Shown piece after piece: positions 18,428-29,933 of a stretch of 35,333 bases of DNA. The notes under the pieces are model-generated. The model did no database searches. It was given only the letters and a program-made list of their open reading frames with translations, and was not told the origin of the DNA. The position numbers and the translations under genes were made by a program. This DNA is from an uncultured Alphaproteobacteria bacterium (GTDB taxonomy: Bacteria > Pseudomonadota > Alphaproteobacteria > Geminicoccales > Geminicoccaceae): NCBI GenBank assembly GCA_937926445.1, contig CALBAK010000118.1, forward strand, positions 1 to 35,333, given 5' to 3'. Positions within the stretch are counted from its first letter, which is position 1, and each line of letters opens with the position of its first letter.

Positions 18428-19718
18428 ATCCGGCACACGGGATCGAGCTGGTCGCGACGGGATCTCCTCGGTGTCTCGGTGGGGGCGCTCGCGGCGGCGA
18501 CGACGGGCTTCCACGGCCCGCGCCGCGCCTTCGCCCAGGCGGGGCCCTGGGCCGTGCCACCCGAGTCCGAGTTCGACGACGTCAATTTGGTTGTCTGGAC
18601 CTAGGGCGACATCTATACAAAGATCGAAAAAAACACCGATGACTGGGGTGTCACGGTCAATTTTACCACCTCTTCCTTCAACGACCATCCGACCGAGCTC
18701 ATGACGATGTTCGCGGGTGGCGAGACGATCGACGGCTCGCAGAGCTCGCCCTTCAGCTTCGCCAACTTCGTGATGCAAGGGCTGGTCGATCCACTCGACG
18801 GGCTGCCCGGGGCGGCCGACTACGCCGCCGACTTCACGAGCTTCACCAAGCAAGTGGCGATCCGGGGCGGCAAGCTCGTGGGCCTGCCCTATTTCTCGGC
18901 CGTCCTGGTCTGGAACTATCACCAGGACCTCATGGACAAGGCCAAGATGGAGCCGTTCCGGTCCTACGAGGAGCTCCTCGAACATTGCCGAGAGGCCAAG
19001 AAGGACGGCGTTTGCCAATATCCGATCCTCTGGGTCGCGGGCGCCGGGCTCGAGCAGCTGCCCGGCACCTGGTACCAGATGACCTGGAACAAGAGCGGCA
19101 CCTTCTTTGACAAGGACGGCAAGCACCAAGGAGGAGCTCACCGACCCGGAGAGCCTCGAGGTGCAGTTCACCGCCCGGGCCAAGGCCTTCGGTGCGGGCA
19201 AGAACCTCTACCGCGGGCCCAACCACCATGACGGGCTCAATGTCGCCAACGATCCCGCCCAGTCGCCGACCGCCGACAAGGCCAAGGTCCGGGGCTCGCC
19301 GGGCGACGGTCGGACGGTGGGGGTGACCCACGTCTACTTCCTGTGCACCGCCAACCGGGACAAGGGATGGGCCTGGAAACTGCTGCAATACCTGGGCGGG
19401 CGAACCAAGGACGGAAATTACACCCAAGCGGAGAACCTGGCGCGCGACGCCATGTTGGGCTCGGGCTACCAGTCGGTAATGGACAGCGAGGTGATCGGGA
19501 CCGGCTGGGCGCCGCGGGGTGACGTGCCGGCGATCCTGGAGATCTGGAAGAAGGCCACCTATCTCGGCGAGGTGGTCGACTCGATGTACTAGCCCTGGCA
19601 CTTCCCCTGGTCGGACCGCCTCGACATCGAGCTTCAGAAGTGCCTCACGGGCCAGATCACGGCCGATCAGGCCTGCGACAACCTCGTCGAGGCGATCGAC
19701 GAGGCGAAGCGCGCCTGA
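18428..19718 (+). pseudogene. Carbohydrate ABC transporter substrate-binding protein, operon 1 (decayed)
   Basis: The reading begins at ATC (18428-18430) in a good ribosome-site context and gives RHTGSSWSRRDLLGVSVGAL, a Tat signal with the twin Arg, followed by a family-1 solute-binding protein (ELMTMFAGGETIDG, then VGLPYFSAVLVWNYHQDLMDKA). Lesions are: start ATG to ATC; TAG at 18602-18604 where VVWT-Trp-GDIY is expected; a frameshift with apparent loss of some residues near 19125-19140; and TAG at 19590-19592 before PWHFPW. The last frame ends LVEAIDEAKRA at 19718. It once bound a sugar in the periplasm for the two permeases that follow. As it stands no full product can be made unless the lesions are read errors. 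Confidence 0.8.
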
Positions 19719-19736
19719 GCCGGCTGGGCGAACCCC

Positions 19737-20677
19737 GTGGCGAGCCGGAGCGAGCCGGCCGCGGCGGCGGCCCCGGCCCGTAGCCGCAGCCGCGAGCCGG
19801 CACCCGGCCGGCTCGCGCTCGTCATGAACCTGCCGACGCTTTCGACCATGGCGCACGTGCTGCCCTACCCGATCGGCTACGCCGCCTGGCTGAGCTTCAA
19901 TCGGGTGGGCCCGGCGCAGCTGCGCCGCGGCGAGTTCCCCTGGGCCGGCTCGACAATTACTTCCACTTGTTCAACGATTTTCTGTATTTGCTTTCGCTCA
20001 GGAATACCTTCGTCTTCGTGGCGATCGTGGTCGTGGCCGAGCTCGTGCTCGCCGTGGCGATCGGCCTCCTCATCAACCAGCAGGGGATCCGGACCTCGCG
20101 GATCACCCGCATCCTCATCCTCCTGCCCTAAGCCATCCCGCCGATCGCCAACGGCCTGATCCGGTCCTTCCTCTACTGTTTCCAGTTCGGTTTCTTGAAC
20201 CGCATTCTGTTCACCTTCGGGCTCATCGACCAGCCGATCGACTGGGCGGGTCATCCCGCGACCGCGCTCCATGCCGTGACCGTACCCTGTGTCTGCCGGA
20301 CCTTGCCGTTCGCCGTGCTGCTCGTCCACGCCGCGCTCCAGGGAATAGGTAGCGAGCTACACGAGGCGGCAGCCGTCGAAGGGGCCACCGCCTGGCAGCG
20401 CTTCCGCCACATCACGCTGCCGCTCCTGATCCCGATCATCGTCGTGATCCTCGTGCTGCGGACCTCCTTCGCCTTCACCGTCTTCGAGGAGATCCGGGTG
20501 ATCACCCACGGCAGGCCCGGTGATGCCACCTGGGTGGCCGGCTGGTACAGCTACAAAAAGGCCTTCGGGCCGCCGAACGACATCGGACTTGGGGCCGCCT
20601 GGGCCTGGGTCTTGGCGCTGATCGTGGGCGTATTCGCCATCGTCTACGTCGAGACGATCTACCGGCGGATCCTCTAG
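19737..20677 (+). pseudogene. MalF-like sugar ABC permease, operon 1 (decayed)
   Basis: A GTG at 19737 opens an Ala/Arg-rich leader and TM1 (VLPYPIGYAAWLSFNR). The frame shifts near 19950 to LDNYFHLFNDFLYLLSLRN and carries TAA at 20129-20131 in LLP-stop-AIPPIANGL, where Trp is usual. It then continues to the EAA loop (HEAAAVEGATAWQRFRHITLP), which docks the ATPase, and ends at TAG 20675-20677. Two further positions that are often Trp in homologues read Arg or Cys (GLIRSFLY, PCVCRTLPF). The membrane topology of six helices is otherwise recognisable. It follows the binding-protein gene by 18 bp and precedes the second permease by 3 bp, a normal operon order. Confidence 0.8.
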
Positions 20678-20680
20678 CCG

Positions 20681-21583
20681 ATGCTCGCCCCCGGCCCGGT
20701 AGCCCGCCTCTTCCTGCACTTCGCCGACCTTGCGGTGATAGCCTTCCCGCTCTTGCCGATCGCCGCCGTCACGCTCGGGGCATTGCAGGCCGAAAAACCC
20801 TGCAGACGGACACGCGAGCTCTTCTGCCGCCAGAATGGACGCTCGACAATTTCCGGTTGATCCTGTCGGGCGGCGAGCAGCGTGGTGCGATCTTCGAAAA
20901 GGTCACCAATCTGCCCGACAATGTCACGAAAATTCGCTATGCTTTCACCACCAGCACTGTAATCCCGTTCTCGGTGATGTTCCTTACGGTCACCATGGGC
21001 GCACTCTCGGCCTAGACGATCGTTCGATTGCGCTATCGCTGGACCCGTTGGCTTGTCAACGCGAGCCTGTTCGCCCGCTTCGTGCCGGCGATCACGCTCA
21101 TGATCCCGATCTACTTGGCTTTCCGCCAACTCGGACTCTTGAATTCGATCGCAGGTGCGATCGTGGCGCTGACGGGTTTTCTTTTACCTTATGCGATCCT
21201 GATCTCGGCGTCCTATTTCGACCAGATCTCGAAAGAGCTCGAGGACAGCGCCCGAATCGACGGTCGCTCGCGCTTCGGCGCCTTTTGGCGGGTGAGCCTG
21301 CCGCTCGCCGCGCCCGGGCTCGCCTCCTGAGCTGCCCTCGTCTTCGTCATCGCCTGGAACGAGCTGTCGATCCCCTCGTCTTCGTGAACGAGGCCGAGTT
21401 CATGACGGTACCGGTCGTCGTCGACAGACTCGTCGGCGATGTCCACGTCTTCTTCGACCTGACGATGGCTTCAACCTGACGATGGCGATCTGCCTCCTGG
21501 CACTCCTGCCCTCCGTGATCCTCGTCTCGTTGCTCCAGAAAGTCGTGGTCGCCGGGCTGCAGGTGGGTGGCGTGAAGGGGTGA
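20681..21583 (+). pseudogene. MalG-like sugar ABC permease, operon 1 (decayed)
   Basis: The gene starts MLAPGPVARLFLHFADLAVIAFPLLP at 20681. It shifts frame near 20790 (to TLQTDTRALLPPEWTLDNFRLIL) and has TAG at 21013-21015 in ALSA-stop-TIVRLRY. The EAA loop region (KELEDSARIDGRSRFGAFWRVSLPLAAPG) is read well, then TGA falls at 21328-21330. The frame shifts again near 21365 and near 21470, where acctgacgatggc is duplicated, and ends SLLQKVVVAGLQVGGVKG at 21583. The order of conserved blocks is intact, so this is a dead or misread copy of a sugar-importer inner-membrane subunit. No ATPase gene follows; a shared ATPase may have served both operons. Confidence 0.8.
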
Positions 21584-21903
21584 GGTGCCGTCGAAGACGG
21601 CGGCGACGGCCGGCGGCGCACGCGCGTTCACCTTTTCTTCATTTCTTCGCTCTAGACACTGCTCGCGAGAGACCAGGCCGCAGAGGTGGCGGGGCTCCGG
21701 CCCCGCCGAACCGGATGGAACCGGAGCCGACGATGTTGGGCGTACACGATCTTCACGGGTTCGCCGCGAACAGACCCTCCCGCCGTCGAGCAGTCCACAG
21801 AAGATCGGTGTCGGCGGGAATGAATCGGCAGCGTTCGCGTCTACTCCATCGGAGGCTGCCGAGCGCGGCCTCGCAGTCCGGAACCGCCAGCCAGGAGTTC
21901 ACA
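21584..21903. other. 320-bp leader region before the hydrolase gene
   Basis: No gene is seen. It may contain the hydrolase promoter, but no clear -10/-35 is visible. The stretch ctagacactg near 21652-21661 is one of the few less GC-rich spots. It ends with AGGAG (21893-21897), the ribosome site of the next gene. Confidence 0.4.
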
Positions 21904-22863
21904 ATGCGCGAAGGTACCGTGCGCAGCCTAGTCCGGCGTTGCGCCGCGATCACGGCCGTGGCGGCGACGCTCGGCGTCGTCGCGGCCGATCAGGCGGTGG
22001 CGCAGGCCTATTGGCGGAGCGGCATGAGCTGCCATTACGGCAACATGTTGTACACGCTCGAGATGTGGCGCGGTACGCCGTTCAGCGCCCTACACGGGTG
22101 GGCTCCCCAGGACACGTGGTCGAACATGCTGACCTTCTTCAGCAGTACGGTCGGGAGCGAATTCGCCGCCAAGCGTGGTAACGGGCGGGTACTGGCGATC
22201 AGCACCCCGCTCCTGACCTACGAGTCCAGAGGTCAGTTCGCCCAGTGCGCCGCTGGGGCCTTCGACAATCACTATCGCGGCATTGCCCAGAGACTCGTCT
22301 GGCGTGGAGCGACGGACGCCATCATCCGGCTCGGCTGGGAAGCGAACGGGAACTGGTTCCCCTGGTCGATCAACGGCAACTACAGCGGCTTCAAAGCTTG
22401 CTTCCGTCGCGCCGTCCAAGTTATGCGATCGGTCGTGCCCGGTCTCAAGATCGAGTGGTCGGTGAACCGCGAGTCGTGGAACGGAAAGTACCAGAACGTC
22501 GCTGCCAATGCCTATCCTGGCGACGACGTCGTCAACGTGATCGGCCTCTCCTTCTATGATCAGTGGCCTGCAGCGACCAGTGAATCGGTGTGGCAGTCCT
22601 CTTTCAAGCCCGAGCTCGACTTCTGGGCCAACTTCGCGCGAAGCCGGGGCAAACAGCTGGCCATCGGCGAATGGGGGTTGGGCAACAAGAGCGGTGGCGG
22701 CTTCGACAATCCGTTCTATATCCAGAAGATGCGCGAATTCTTCGCGCAGAACGCCGGCCTGATCGCCTACGAAGCCTACTTCAACTGTGAAGCTCAGAAT
22801 TTCCGGATCTATCCGGAGTGGAACAATCCGCGAGCTGCGCTGGCCTACAAGAACTTGTTCTGA
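21904..22863 (+). CDS. Secreted GH26-like glycoside hydrolase
   Basis: The 319-residue protein has a signal peptide (Arg patch, hydrophobic 15-28, likely cut after AVAQA near 35) and a TIM-barrel domain. IRLGWEANGNWFPW (Glu146) matches the acid/base motif of GH26 mannanase-type enzymes, and LAIGEWGL (Glu256) matches the strand with the nucleophile. Aromatic residues line the motif (WFPWSINGNY, WSVNRE, FYDQWP). It should cut a beta-linked polysaccharide outside the cytoplasm; mannan, glucan or an exopolysaccharide cannot be told apart. The ATG at 21904 follows AGGAG at 6-bp spacing. The gene is intact and full length although the transporter genes just upstream are broken. It may be independently expressed or recently acquired. 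Family placement is from motifs only. Confidence 0.75.
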   Translation: MREGTVRSLVRRCAAITAVAATLGVVAADQAVAQAYWRSGMSCHYGNMLYTLEMWRGTPFSALHGWAPQDTWSNMLTFFSSTVGSEFAAKRGNGRVLAISTPLLTYESRGQFAQCAAGAFDNHYRGIAQRLVWRGATDAIIRLGWEANGNWFPWSINGNYSGFKACFRRAVQVMRSVVPGLKIEWSVNRESWNGKYQNVAANAYPGDDVVNVIGLSFYDQWPAATSESVWQSSFKPELDFWANFARSRGKQLAIGEWGLGNKSGGGFDNPFYIQKMREFFAQNAGLIAYEAYFNCEAQNFRIYPEWNNPRAALAYKNLF

Positions 22864-24336: not shown

Positions 24337-25436
24337 TCACGCGGCCGGAGAAGCCCAGCGGCCCGTGCGGCGCAGGCCCGGGGCAGAGAGCACCGCCCTG
24401 CCGTGCGGGCCGAACAGATGGCAGGCCTCGATCGGGATCAGGATCCGCAGTCGCTCGCCCGCAACGACCGGGACGTCGCCGCCACTGCGGACGGTGAGCG
24501 GCCCAGCCTCGGTCTCGAGGTGCAGGTAGGACTCCGCACCCAGATGTTCGGCGAGCCGGACCCGGCCCGCCACTCCGGCCCCGTCGAACGAGCCGATCGC
24601 GAGATGCTCGGGCCGCACGCCGAGCGTGAGATCGGCGAAACCGAGCGCCGCATCGGGCATGGCCAAGAGATCGCCCGAGGCCAGCCGCACCCCGCCCTCG
24701 GCCGGCCGGACTTTCAGGAAATTCGTCTTGGGACTGCCGAGAAAGCCGGCGACGAACAGGTTGGCGGGGCGATGGTACAGCTCGAGCGGCCGGCCTGCTC
24801 GATCCGCCCCCCGGAGAGCACCACGATAAGGTGGGCCATTGTCGTGGCCTCGACCTGGTCGTGAGTGACGTAAATCATCGTGTTGCCGAGCCAGTCGTGG
24901 AGCGCCTTGAGTTCGATCCGCATCTGGACGCGGAGCTCCGCGTCGAGGTTCGAGAGCGGCTCGTCGAACAGGAACACCTCGGGCTCGCGGACCACCGCCC
25001 GGCCGATCGCCACCCGTTGCCGCTGGCCGCCCGAGAGCGCCTTGGGCCGACGGTCGAGGAGTTCCTCGATCCGAAGCATCCGCGCTGCCTCGGCGACAGG
25101 GCGGGCGATCTCGGCCTCGGGCGTCTTCAGGTTCTCGAGGCCGAAAGCGAGGTTCTGCCGCACCGTCATGTGCGGTTAGAGAGCATAGGACCGGAAGACC
25201 ATGGCGAGACCGCGGCGAGCCGCCGGGATCTCGTTGACCCGGACCCCGTCGATCCGGAGCTCGCCCGCGCTGATCGGCTCGAGACCGGCGATCGTGCGCA
25301 GGAGCGTCGACTTGCCGCAGCCGGAGGAGCCCACGAACACGCAGAAGGCATCCGAGGGAATCTCGAGTTCGACGCCGTGGATCACCTCGACGGTGCCGTA
25401 GCGTTTGACCATCCGATCGAGCTCGACGGTGGCCAT
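24337..25436 (-). pseudogene. MalK/UgpC-type sugar ABC transporter ATPase, operon 2 (decayed)
   Basis: The gene starts MATVELDRMVKRYGTVEVIHG at 25436. It has Walker A GSSGCGKST, signature [10 protein letters not shown], Walker B VFLFDEP and H-loop THDQ, then a C-terminal TOBE/regulatory domain with GVRPEHLAIG. Three faults are seen: the Q-loop reads VFRSYAL where VFQSYAL is the rule (ccg at 25191-25193); TAA occurs at 25176-25178 in SYAL-stop-PHMTV, where Tyr is normal; and a frameshift near 24790 separates IEQAGR from [11 protein letters not shown]. It would hydrolyse ATP for sugar import on the cytoplasmic face. Three separate faults in one gene make true decay more likely than a single read error. 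Confidence 0.8.
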
Positions 25437-25446
25437 CGAACGCGGC

Positions 25447-26479
25447 CCACTTGATCACGGTCGTGGCGATGCCGTTCGTGATGTAGCGTTGCAGGAAACC
25501 GAAGACGAGCGTTATCGGCAACAAAGTCAGCACCGTCATCGCCAGGAGATTACCCCATTGCGTGTGCATCTCGCCCTTGAAGGAGTTGAGGGCGACCTGG
25601 AGCGTGAACTGCTCCGACCGGGAAACCACAATCAACGGCAAAAGAAAGTCGTTCCAGCGCCACATCACCGCGAAGATAGCGAGGACGGCGAGCGCCGGGG
25701 CGGCGAGCAGAAACACGATCCGCCAGTAGATCTTCCATTCCGAGGCATTGTCCATCCTCGCCGCGTCGATCAGCTCGTCGGGGATCGTGAGCATGGATTG
25801 GCGGAGGAGGAAGACGCCGGTCGGGGTCGCCGTACCCGGCCAGATCACACCCCAGGGGGAATTCAACAGCCCGAGTTCGGAAACGACGAGGAAGACCGGC
25901 ACGAGTACCACGGTCGGTGGGATCAGGAGCGTCGCGATGGTGAGCACGAAAACCAAGTCACGGCCGCGGAAGTCGTATTTCGCGAGCGTATAGGCCGCCA
26001 TCGAATTGACGAGCAGCATGATCAGCGTGGCGGTCACGGTGATGAACACCGAGTTCCACAAATAGCGCAGGAAGTGAAAACGCTCGAAGAGGGCCGTGTA
26101 ATTCTCGTTGGCGAGGGAGAGGGCGCGGACCGGCTCGCGATCGGCGACGTCGACGCGGATCACCCGCTCGGGCGCGGCCGGATCGACCATCTGGGCCTGG
26201 ATGCCGATCCGGCGGAGTTGGGCCATCTCCGCGACCGCGCCGTCCGGCAGGCGGACGCGGAAGAGCGGCAGAGGCTCGGGATGGCCCGGCACGGTCACGG
26301 TCACCTGGCCGTAGGGCAGCGCCGAGGGCGGGAACTCCACGAGCTGGGCCTCGCTCTTGAAGGAGCACAGGACCACCCAGACGACGGGCCCGAACATCGA
26401 GGACGACGCCGAGCAAGAGATAGCCGTAAGCGAGCCGGTCGGTCCGATGCAGCCCGCCCTTACCGCGCGTGCGGGTCAA
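25447..26479 (-). pseudogene. MalG-like sugar ABC permease with periplasmic insert, operon 2 (frameshifted, stop lost)
   Basis: The likely start is TTG at 26479 (LTRTRGKGGLHRTDRLAYGYLLLGVVL). One extra base near 26400 puts MFGPVVWVVLCSFKSEAQL in the next frame. Between the first two membrane helices is a roughly 90-residue beta-rich insert (VTVTVPGHPEPLPLFRVRL ... ENYTALFERF), longer than in standard MalG. The EAA loop reads DELIDAARMDNASEWKIYWRIVFLLAAPA. The usual end (ITNGIATTVIK) is followed by TGG (25447-25449) instead of a stop, so the frame runs on through the ATPase region to 24337. It is an inner-membrane pore subunit. The product is probably not made correctly. Confidence 0.8.
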
Positions 26480-26509
26480 GAAAAATCGACGAGGCCCGGA
26501 GTGGCGGCA

Positions 26510-27433
26510 CTAGCCACGGTAGCTCGTCCGGTTCGCCCGGAGCTGGAGGAGGGTGAGGACCATGAGGAGGGCCGCGAGGAGGAGGGAGGCGAAAGCGGCG
26601 AGCCCGAAGAGCCGCGGCTGTACGGCGAAGCCCGTCTCGTAGATGTACTGGACGATCGGCATCGTGGCAGAACCCGGCCCGCCGCCCGTCAGGACGTGGA
26701 TCTCGTCGAAGGTCTGCACGCCCTTGATCAAGGCGAGCACGATCACGACCAGCATGATCGGCATCAGCGACGGCAGGGTGATCCGGGTGAGCTTGCGCCA
26801 GGGCGAGGCCGTATCCATCTCGGCCGCCTCGTAGACGTCCTTCGGGATCGCCTGCAGGCCGGCCAACAGGATGAGCGTGTAGAAGCCCGTGTGCGCCCAG
26901 ATCGAGACGAACACCACCCAGAAGAAGGACCAGCCCGCGTCCATGAGCCACAAGATCGGCTCGCCACCGAAGGCGGCGATAAAGGCATCGAGCACGCCCT
27001 CGCGCTGGAGGATCCACTTCCAGATCAGAGCCAAGACGACGGGATTCAACAGCACGGGGTAGAAGAAGACGCCGCGGAAGAAGCCGCGCCCCTTGATCTC
27101 GCGGTCGAGCACGAGGGCCGTGATCAGCGAGAACAAGACCATGAAACCGACCTGGAGGAGCACGAACCGGCCGGTGTTGAAGAGCGCGCGCCAGAAGAGG
27201 TCCTTCGAGCAGGTCGAGGGGTCCAGATAATCGCGGCAGTCGAGCAGGCTCGCGAAGTTCTCGAAACCGACGAAAGGCCGCTCGGTCGCCAGGACCGCGA
27301 GTCCACCGGTCGTGGCGTAGCCGAAGTTCAAAGCGATCGGCAAATAGGTCAAAATACCGAAGATCACGAGGTTGGGCGGGAGGAAGATCCAGGCGAAGCG
27401 GTTCCGGCCGATGCGGCGGTGCACGGCCACCAT
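26510..27433 (-). CDS. MalF-like sugar ABC permease, operon 2
   Basis: This is the only transporter gene of the two sugar systems that reads through intact. The protein (about 307 residues from ATG 27433) has an N-terminal helix WIFLPPNLVIFGILTYLPIALNF, further helices, and the EAA loop (KDVYEAAEMDTASPWRKLTRITLPSLMP) that contacts the ATPase. The frame extends 27 codons upstream of the chosen ATG and lacks a clear ribosome site there, so the start may differ. It ends at TAG 26510, about 30 bp before the MalG gene. It forms half of the membrane channel. With its binding protein, partner permease and ATPase all disrupted, it is probably non-functional in practice. Confidence 0.85.
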   Translation of the reverse strand: MVAVHRRIGRNRFAWIFLPPNLVIFGILTYLPIALNFGYATTGGLAVLATERPFVGFENFASLLDCRDYLDPSTCSKDLFWRALFNTGRFVLLQVGFMVLFSLITALVLDREIKGRGFFRGVFFYPVLLNPVVLALIWKWILQREGVLDAFIAAFGGEPILWLMDAGWSFFWVVFVSIWAHTGFYTLILLAGLQAIPKDVYEAAEMDTASPWRKLTRITLPSLMPIMLVVIVLALIKGVQTFDEIHVLTGGGPGSATMPIVQYIYETGFAVQPRLFGLAAFASLLLAALLMVLTLLQLRANRTSYRG

Positions 27434-27527
27434 CGGCCGGTCCACGAGATCGGCCAAAAAGTGGTGCGGGCGCAGGAGACGCGACCCCGGTACGGCCGGG
27501 GGCACCGGGCGCACTCGGCGGCCTCCC

Positions 27528-28788
27528 CTACTTCTTGGCCTGAGCCACGGCCTCGGCGATGTCGGTCTGGAGCTTGGCCATCGCCTCGTCGAAGGAGAGC
27601 GCCCACGATCGCCTGGGTGACCCGGGTCGTCGTGGCGTTGAACATCACCCGGTTCAACGGATAGTCCCGACAGGCGTAGGCCGCGGGCGCGATCTCGGCG
27701 ACCCGGCGGGCCCAGGCCTGGAGCGCCTTGCAGCCGGCCGGACCGGCGTCCTGATAGGCGAGTCCCTTGGCGGCGATGCCCTTGTGCGCGGGCACCTTCT
27801 TGGTGCGCTCGACGAGCTGCGCGTGGACCGGCTCGGAAGCGAAGAAGTCCAAGACCTTGGCGGCCGCCTGTGGGGCCGCGGTCCGCGTGAAGGCGACGAG
27901 TGCGGCGTCACCGGGCATCCCGCTGCAGGCCGCCGGGCCGCAGGGCGAGCCCACCACCTCCCAGTCGAAGGCGTCGCCGATCGCTTTCTCGAAGCGGCCG
28001 GTCTGCCAGCTGCCGGAATAGTAGTAGACGACTCGTCCGTTGATGAACTCCTGGGCGGCGTCCTGGTAGGCCGCACCGCCCTGGCTCACCCAGACGTCAC
28101 GGGCCATCGTGCCGTCCTTCATCCAGGCGACGAGCTTGGCCATGAGGGTCTTGAAGCCGTCGTCGACGAGCGCGGGTGTGCCGTCGGCGGCGAAGATCTC
28201 GGCGCCGTAAGAGATGGCGGGCCCGGCCACGCGGTGACCGGTGCGATCGATCGCCATCGGGAAGCGAGTCTGGGTGGCCTCGGCGACCTTGCGCGTGGCC
28301 TCTGCCCACTCGTCCCAGCTCGCCTGGGGCCCGGGCAGCTCGACCTTGGCCTGCTCGAAGAGCGTCCGGTTCACGAACCCGCCCGTGATCGTGAGCTGGG
28401 GCATCACGCCGTAGATGCCCTTGTCGGCGGAGCCGCTCCGGAACCAGGGCAGGGTGGCGGTGAAATTCTACTCCCAGTAAGCCGCGTTCACATAGGGTGC
28501 GATGTCGAGATAATACTTGCCGAGGCCACCCAGGTCCGTGACCCGGGCCAGATCCGGACCCTGGCCGGCGGCAAGTTGGACGGGCAGACGCTCGAGGATG
28601 GCCTCGTAGGGCACGGTGGCGACAGTGACCTTGATGTCCGGATTGGACTTGTGAAAGTCCTCGAGCAGGGCCTTGGCGACGTCGCACTCGTTGCCGTCCT
28701 GGTAGCACATGAAGCGCAGCTCGGTGGCCGCGGAGGCCGCCAGCACGCCGAGCGCGATCATCGCCGCACCGATCCACCGAACCCGCAT
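27528..28788 (-). pseudogene. Carbohydrate ABC transporter substrate-binding protein, operon 2 (amber and frameshift)
   Basis: The ATG at 28788 (GAAGG upstream) starts a Sec signal (MRVRWIGAAMIALGVLAASA), then a family-1 binding protein with ELRFMCYQDGNECDVAKALLEDFHKSNPDIKV. TAG at 28468-28470 interrupts AYWE-stop-NFTATLPWFR, where Gln or Lys is expected. The rest is open (GIYGVMPQLTITGGFVNRT to TTTRVTQAIVGA), and a frameshift near 27600 leads to SFDEAMAKLQTDIAEAVAQAKK, which ends at 27528. The periplasmic protein would deliver sugar to the following permeases. It comes after the two oxidoreductase genes, suggesting one transcript from about 31 kb. A single C-to-T change explains the TAG. Confidence 0.8.
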
Positions 28789-28856
28789 CCTCGCCTTCCC
28801 GCAGCCGGATCCCGGTCCGCCGATGGCCTGCCAGCGGCCGGCGACGGGACGATGAC

Positions 28857-29933
28857 TTAGGCCGGCAGCCAGCGCAACCACCCCCCATAGGCCGGGTGCG
28901 AGGCGCGCAGCGGCAGCTCGACCGCCTCGCGGGTGGCGGCGGCGTAATAGAGGGCGGTCGCGAGCTCGACCGACCGGCGCGCGTCGGCGAGCGTCACGGG
29001 CGGCTCCTCGCCCGTCTCGAGGCTCGCCGCGAGCTCGGCGAACAGGCCCTGGTAACCCTCTGGACCCGGCCGGAAATCCTCGAGCAGGCGCTTGACCTCG
29101 GCCGCGGTCTCGGGATCGCGGGGAACGAAGCGCCAGGGGTCGCCGGCCGGCCGGTACGGGGAGAGCGCGCTCTCGACCGTGAGATGGGCGAAGCAGAACC
29201 GCAGGCGGGTGATCTCCTCGGCCGAGCCGAGCGTCACCGAGAGGGTCACGAGCGTGCCGTCCGCCATCTCGAGACAGGCGGCGGCGCAGTCCTCGGTCTC
29301 GATGCAGTTGACTCGGGTGGCAATCGTCGCCTGGACCCGGCGGGCCGGACCCAGGACCTCGGTCAAGAGATCGTGGGCGTGGATCGCGTGGCTCACGAGC
29401 GCGCCGCCGAGCTCGCTGTCCTTCCGCCCGCGCCAGGGGACCCGATAATAGGCCGGGCCACGGTCCCAATGGGTCTCGACCGTGGCGACCAGGGGCCGCC
29501 CCGGCACACCCGCCTCGATCAGGCGCCAGAGTTTCCGGATGCCGTTCCCGAACCGATACTGGTAGACGGGGCAGACCACGCGCCCTCGGGCCTTGGCCAG
29601 GGCGGCGATGCCGTCGACCTCGGCGAGCGAGCCGGCGAGCGGCTTCTCGCAGACCACGTCCTTGCCCTGCTCGAGAGCGGCACGCACGGCCGGCGCGTGG
29701 AGCGAGGGCGGCAGGCAGATGTCGACCACGTCGACATCGTCGCGCGCCAGAACCCGCTCGAGCGAGCTCTCGACCTCGCTTCCGGGGGCGCGAGCGGCGA
29801 GCGCTCGCGCCCGGGCGAGATCCCGGTCGCAGATCACCCGCACCTCCCAGACGTCCTGGAGGAGCAGGAGCGCGTCGAGATGCTGGGCGCCGATCCCGGC
29901 GCCCACGACGGCGATCCGCCGTCTGCCGCTCAC
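28857..29933 (-). CDS. Gfo/Idh/MocA-family oxidoreductase, copy A
   Basis: The 358-residue protein has an N-terminal Rossmann fold (RRIAVVGAGIGAQH, 5-18) and the family's EKP signature in VCEKPLAG (Glu96-Lys97-Pro98), where the lysine contacts the nicotinamide. A C-terminal alpha/beta domain follows, with GGALVSHAIHAHDLL holding the catalytic-type histidines. The family oxidises or reduces sugars, inositols and related polyols with NAD(P). The GTG start at 29933 overlaps the upstream gene's stop by four bases (GTGA), so the two are probably translated together. It is followed 68 bp later by the sugar-binding protein gene, fitting a role in metabolising what that system imported. Substrate unknown. 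No damage seen. Confidence 0.88.
   Translation of the reverse strand: MSGRRRIAVVGAGIGAQHLDALLLLQDVWEVRVICDRDLARARALAARAPGSEVESSLERVLARDDVDVVDICLPPSLHAPAVRAALEQGKDVVCEKPLAGSLAEVDGIAALAKARGRVVCPVYQYRFGNGIRKLWRLIEAGVPGRPLVATVETHWDRGPAYYRVPWRGRKDSELGGALVSHAIHAHDLLTEVLGPARRVQATIATRVNCIETEDCAAACLEMADGTLVTLSVTLGSAEEITRLRFCFAHLTVESALSPYRPAGDPWRFVPRDPETAAEVKRLLEDFRPGPEGYQGLFAELAASLETGEEPPVTLADARRSVELATALYYAAATREAVELPLRASHPAYGGWLRWLPA

Follow-up and report, generated by a model that had tools for sequence, protein, structure and literature searches.

The window analysed here is a 35,333-nucleotide stretch of DNA from an uncultured bacterium of the Geminicoccaceae, and on its + strand, at 18428-21583, lie three consecutive ABC-transporter gene remnants in the order binding protein, MalF-like permease, MalG-like permease (operon 1). 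Five in-frame stop codons interrupt these genes, and the question they raise is what kind of mutation put them there. An earlier note on this DNA had proposed that all five fall where tryptophan is likely, that each can arise from TGG by a G-to-A change, and that a dead operon has thus been subject to directional transition mutation. The analysis below leads us to regard operon 1, with high confidence, as a decaying (pseudogenised) ABC sugar-uptake operon of one Geminicoccaceae species that has come apart through ordinary, undirected mutation.

Intact orthologues and ancestral function

Homologues were sought among the proteins of 96 genomes (the source genome and 95 relatives), together with a scan of genome contigs. 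An orthologous operon with open frames is found in three of the six genomes of the genus, all three being Geminicoccaceae metagenome-assembled genomes: L021 (AP024683.1, KatS3mg117; genome G005), L022 (JAILZQ010000034.1; G004) and L023 (JANWZN010000060.1; G002). Like operon 1, these congener operons run binding protein, MalF-like, MalG-like, and their aligned pieces are about 80-82% identical to it in DNA sequence. They differ from it in that their frames are open, whereas the window copy has stops, frameshifts and a lost start. In the congeners G001 and G003, for each of which 40 candidates were scored, the search for operon 1 remnants returned short DNA matches only. In the source genome, the protein search turned up no close second copy: the next best among the matches listed is a 37% paralogue (35 of 43 candidates scored). 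At the DNA level, the 40 of 363 candidates scored there included no further long match to operon 1.

The intact L023 copies encode an SBP_bac_1 (PF01547) binding protein and two BPD_transp_1 (PF00528) permeases, as do CUT1-type carbohydrate ABC importers (MalFGK / UgpAEC type), which we take to be the ancestral class of operon 1. A further likeness to that class is that the ATPase orthologue adjoining the operon in L021 exceeds the NCBIfam UgpC subfamily cut-off. The window copy, unlike working CUT1 importers, is broken. Against the NCBIfam models, the binding protein and the permeases score far below every listed cut-off; the best models for the permeases are UgpA, MalF, GlcU and MalG, all under cut-off. 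Among binding proteins of solved structure, the nearest in sequence include maltose-type ones and one for sulfoquinovosyl-glycerol (best E 4.7e-7). No substrate is assigned to operon 1, the curated models being under cut-off for both the binding protein and the permeases.

Lesions in operon 1

Alignment with the three intact congener operons shows that every one of the three genes carries frame-destroying lesions. The SBP_bac_1 sugar-binding protein pseudogene (18428-19718, +; PF01547 in the intact L023 copy) has lost its ATG, the start codon position now reading ATC; it carries stops at 18602 and 19590, a 3-nt deletion at 18633/18634 and a 56-nt deletion at 19126/19127. The MalF/UgpA-type permease pseudogene (19737-20677, +; PF00528) has a stop at 20129 and a 1-nt deletion near 19946, and the MalG-type permease pseudogene (20681-21583, +; PF00528) has stops at 21013 and 21328 and 1-nt deletions near 20796 and 21378. 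A near-exact 17-bp tandem duplication in the MalG-like pseudogene, near 21451-21468 within the segment 21435-21470, is absent from the three congeners.

The pattern of substitution points the same way as these lesions. Of the 219 window-specific substitutions in operon 1, 123 fall at codon positions 1+2; for the three congeners combined the figure is 99 of 335 (Fisher p = 7e-10). This excess indicates relaxed selection on the window's lineage. The pieces between lesions nevertheless retain about 76-87% identity to the congener proteins, so the decay is recent, and some of the window-specific changes are older than it. The part of the earlier note that spoke of a dead operon is therefore well supported, by the start loss, the frameshifts, the stops and the relaxed codon-position pattern alike, and a working transporter is presumably no longer made from operon 1.

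Pseudogenes of transport operons are a general phenomenon in bacteria, typically showing a mixture of stops, small indels and a relaxed replacement rate. Operon 1 resembles them in all of these respects, and we saw no notable difference. In a literature search combining Geminicoccaceae with pseudogene, the titles and abstract openings returned were those of unrelated work only.

Residues replaced at the five stops

Stops and tryptophan codons were counted at gap-free aligned codons only, with gapped codons (including those of the 56-nt deletion) excluded; in the congener frame, the five stops are the only ones among such codons. All five are present in the sequence as the earlier note had described them, and all five do interrupt conserved blocks. 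The residue that each replaces, however, is rarely the one proposed. The congeners agree on the residue in every case: TAG at 18602-18604 stands in place of Tyr (TAC in all three), TAG at 19590-19592 in place of Gln (CAG in all three), TAA at 20129-20131 in place of Tyr (TAC, TAC and TAT), and TGA at 21328-21330 in place of Cys (TGT, TGT and TGC). Only TAG at 21013-21015 replaces Trp (TGG in all three). Among the three sequence contexts put forward as customary tryptophan sites, LSA-TIVRL is indeed one, while VVWT-GDIY and LLP-AIPPI have Tyr. A G-to-A change thus accounts for one stop of the five, that at 21013, and a C-to-T change for another; the remaining three are transversions.

At 32 gap-free positions of operon 1 all three congeners have a Trp codon. 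The window keeps TGG at 25 of these, and seven have changed, to CGG (four times), CTG, TGC and TAG (once each). This rate of change (7/32) may be set against that of the other conserved residues (106/889), giving a weak Trp excess (Fisher p = 0.10). It had also been claimed that other usual Trp sites in the MalF-like gene have changed. Three of its ten conserved gap-free sites have in fact done so, but not by G-to-A: two became CGG, by T-to-C, and one became TGC, by G-to-C.

Mutation spectrum

A substitution was called window-specific where the three congeners agree and the window departs from them (n = 219). It was polarised where the base of the congeners also occurs in at least 70% of 10 outgroup operons, a filter that kept 155 and dropped 64 of the 219. 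The outgroups were 10 of 12 loci (L024-L035), L031 and L033 being left out of the spectrum. The 155 polarised changes comprise C>T 34, T>C 20, G>C 19, C>G 18, A>G 18 and G>A 17, with the rarer types C>A 10, G>T 7, A>C 4, T>G 4, T>A 3 and A>T 1.

There is no G-to-A excess in these polarised changes, either over C>T or over AT>GC transitions per site. Per ancestral site, G>A (17/562 G) is lower than C>T (34/643 C; p = 0.06), and over all codon positions the GC>AT rate (68/1205) equals the AT>GC rate (46/803; p = 1.0). Directional transition mutation, as proposed from the stops, accordingly finds no counterpart in the spectrum. Changes at codon positions 1+2 should mostly postdate the loss of function; of the 89 polarised changes there, 6 are G>A. 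These positions lean slightly GC-ward (AT>GC 45/802, GC>AT 31/777), opposite to the proposed direction. At codon position 3, GC>AT stands at 37/428, with ancestral A/T nearly absent there for comparison.

The spectrum also gives an expectation for the stops themselves. Applied to the three congener sequences, with rates estimated from operon 1 itself, it predicts 6.4-6.7 stops, with Trp codons supplying 32-33%, Gln codons 28% and Tyr codons 17-20%. Since 32-33% are expected at Trp, five stops with one at Trp are a chance outcome.

Weighing the alternatives

The idea that directional G-to-A (transition) mutation turned Trp codons into stops throughout operon 1 can call on the stop at 21013, where TGG did become TAG, and on the weak excess of changed Trp codons noted above. 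Against these stand the four stops that are not at Trp and the three that are transversions, the G>A rate that falls below C>T per site, the equality of GC>AT and AT>GC, the small share of G>A at codon positions 1+2, where AT>GC is above GC>AT, and the changed Trp codons, which mostly took other routes. With homologues lacking Trp at four of five stops and G-to-A not enriched, we reject this explanation and would give it almost no credence. Nor is there appreciable merit in supposing that readthrough or recoding of the stops keeps the operon functional. The stops do lie in otherwise conserved blocks, but all three stop codons are used, replacing four different residues, and readthrough would mend neither the frameshifts nor the lost start.

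A somewhat better case, albeit still an improbable one, can be made for sequencing or assembly errors having created the lesions in a living operon, given that the assembly is a draft of 120 contigs and that single-base indels could by themselves be errors. On the other hand, the codon position 1+2 excess across operon 1, the 56-nt deletion and the 17-bp duplication are not error-like, and several neighbouring genes are open in one frame: a PEBP-like gene at 31.0 kb, an M20 peptidase gene at 15.8 kb and a galactarate/altronate dehydratase gene at 10.9 kb (names taken from congener proteins). Likewise, 81 of the 85 permease-domain matches in the source genome are without an internal stop. The lesions of operon 1 thus appear to belong to the organism, not to the assembly.

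Undirected decay of operon 1, the reading that we favor, would have begun with selection on the transporter ceasing. Undirected mutations would then have built up, with transitions and transversions both ways and small deletions, together with a single larger deletion and a single short tandem duplication. The five stops would be a random draw from codons that lie one step from a stop. The significance of all this beyond annotation is small, and the claim of unusual mutation is removed; what operon 1 offers is a recent loss with intact copies in the genus, and so a clean if modest case of pseudogene decay without direction in a GC-rich genome.

Lesions in operon 2 and in other permease loci

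A second sugar transporter operon (operon 2) lies at 24.4-28.9 kb (24370-28860) on the - strand, convergent with operon 1, and it too carries lesions, called here against two congeners. Its UgpC/MalK-type ATPase gene (24370-25436, -), whose L021 orthologue is the one above the UgpC cut-off, has a 4-nt deletion near 24791 that shifts roughly the final 40% of the gene out of frame. The MalG-type permease gene (25447-26514, -) has two insertions, one of 2 nt near 26486 and one of 1 nt near 26402, and its stop codon position (25449-25447) reads TGG. The MalF-type permease gene (26510-27484, -) has no indel. In the binding protein gene (-; approximate ends 27559-28860; PF01547 in the congener), a 2-nt deletion near 27601 alters the C-terminus.

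Substitutions bear on operon 2 less evenly than on operon 1. Among the operon 2 genes, only the MalF-like one has significantly more of its window-specific substitutions at codon positions 1+2 (51/105 vs 22/98, p = 1.3e-4); no significant excess is seen in the ATPase (p = 0.89), MalG-like (p = 0.14) or binding protein (p = 0.42) genes, nor in the PEBP-like gene taken as a control (14/40 vs 12/50, p = 0.35). For the ATPase, MalG-like and binding protein genes, the evidence of decay is therefore the indels and the lost stop, as the substitutions give no support.

Across the source genome, PF00528 matches with an internal stop number 4 of 85, vs 0 of 90 in G005 and 0 of 86 in G004 (Fisher p = 0.011, a weak result in that two of the four are the operon 1 permeases themselves). 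Two peptide permease loci elsewhere in the same genome, L057 (G000:C65:52300-55000) and L058 (G000:C34:15200-17700), contain internal stops and indels; we call them Dpp-like from their sequence, not from a family search. In an exploratory comparison with one congener each, the stops in their presumed true frames replace Tyr, Trp and Tyr; the scan took in wrong frames as well, and the tally leaves out at least one further L058 stop.

With both sugar operons of the window and the two Dpp-like permease loci lesioned, it is conceivable that a parallel loss of several ABC operons for solute uptake is under way in the species, a suggestion that we advance tentatively and would put at somewhat less than an even chance. 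If true, such parallel loss of ABC importers would represent an early stage of a change of diet within a small genus.

Between the two operons of the window lies an open gene (21784-22860, +) with a weak Glyco_hydro_26 match. It occupies the same place in L022 (G004) and is absent in L021 (G005), where the two operons directly adjoin.
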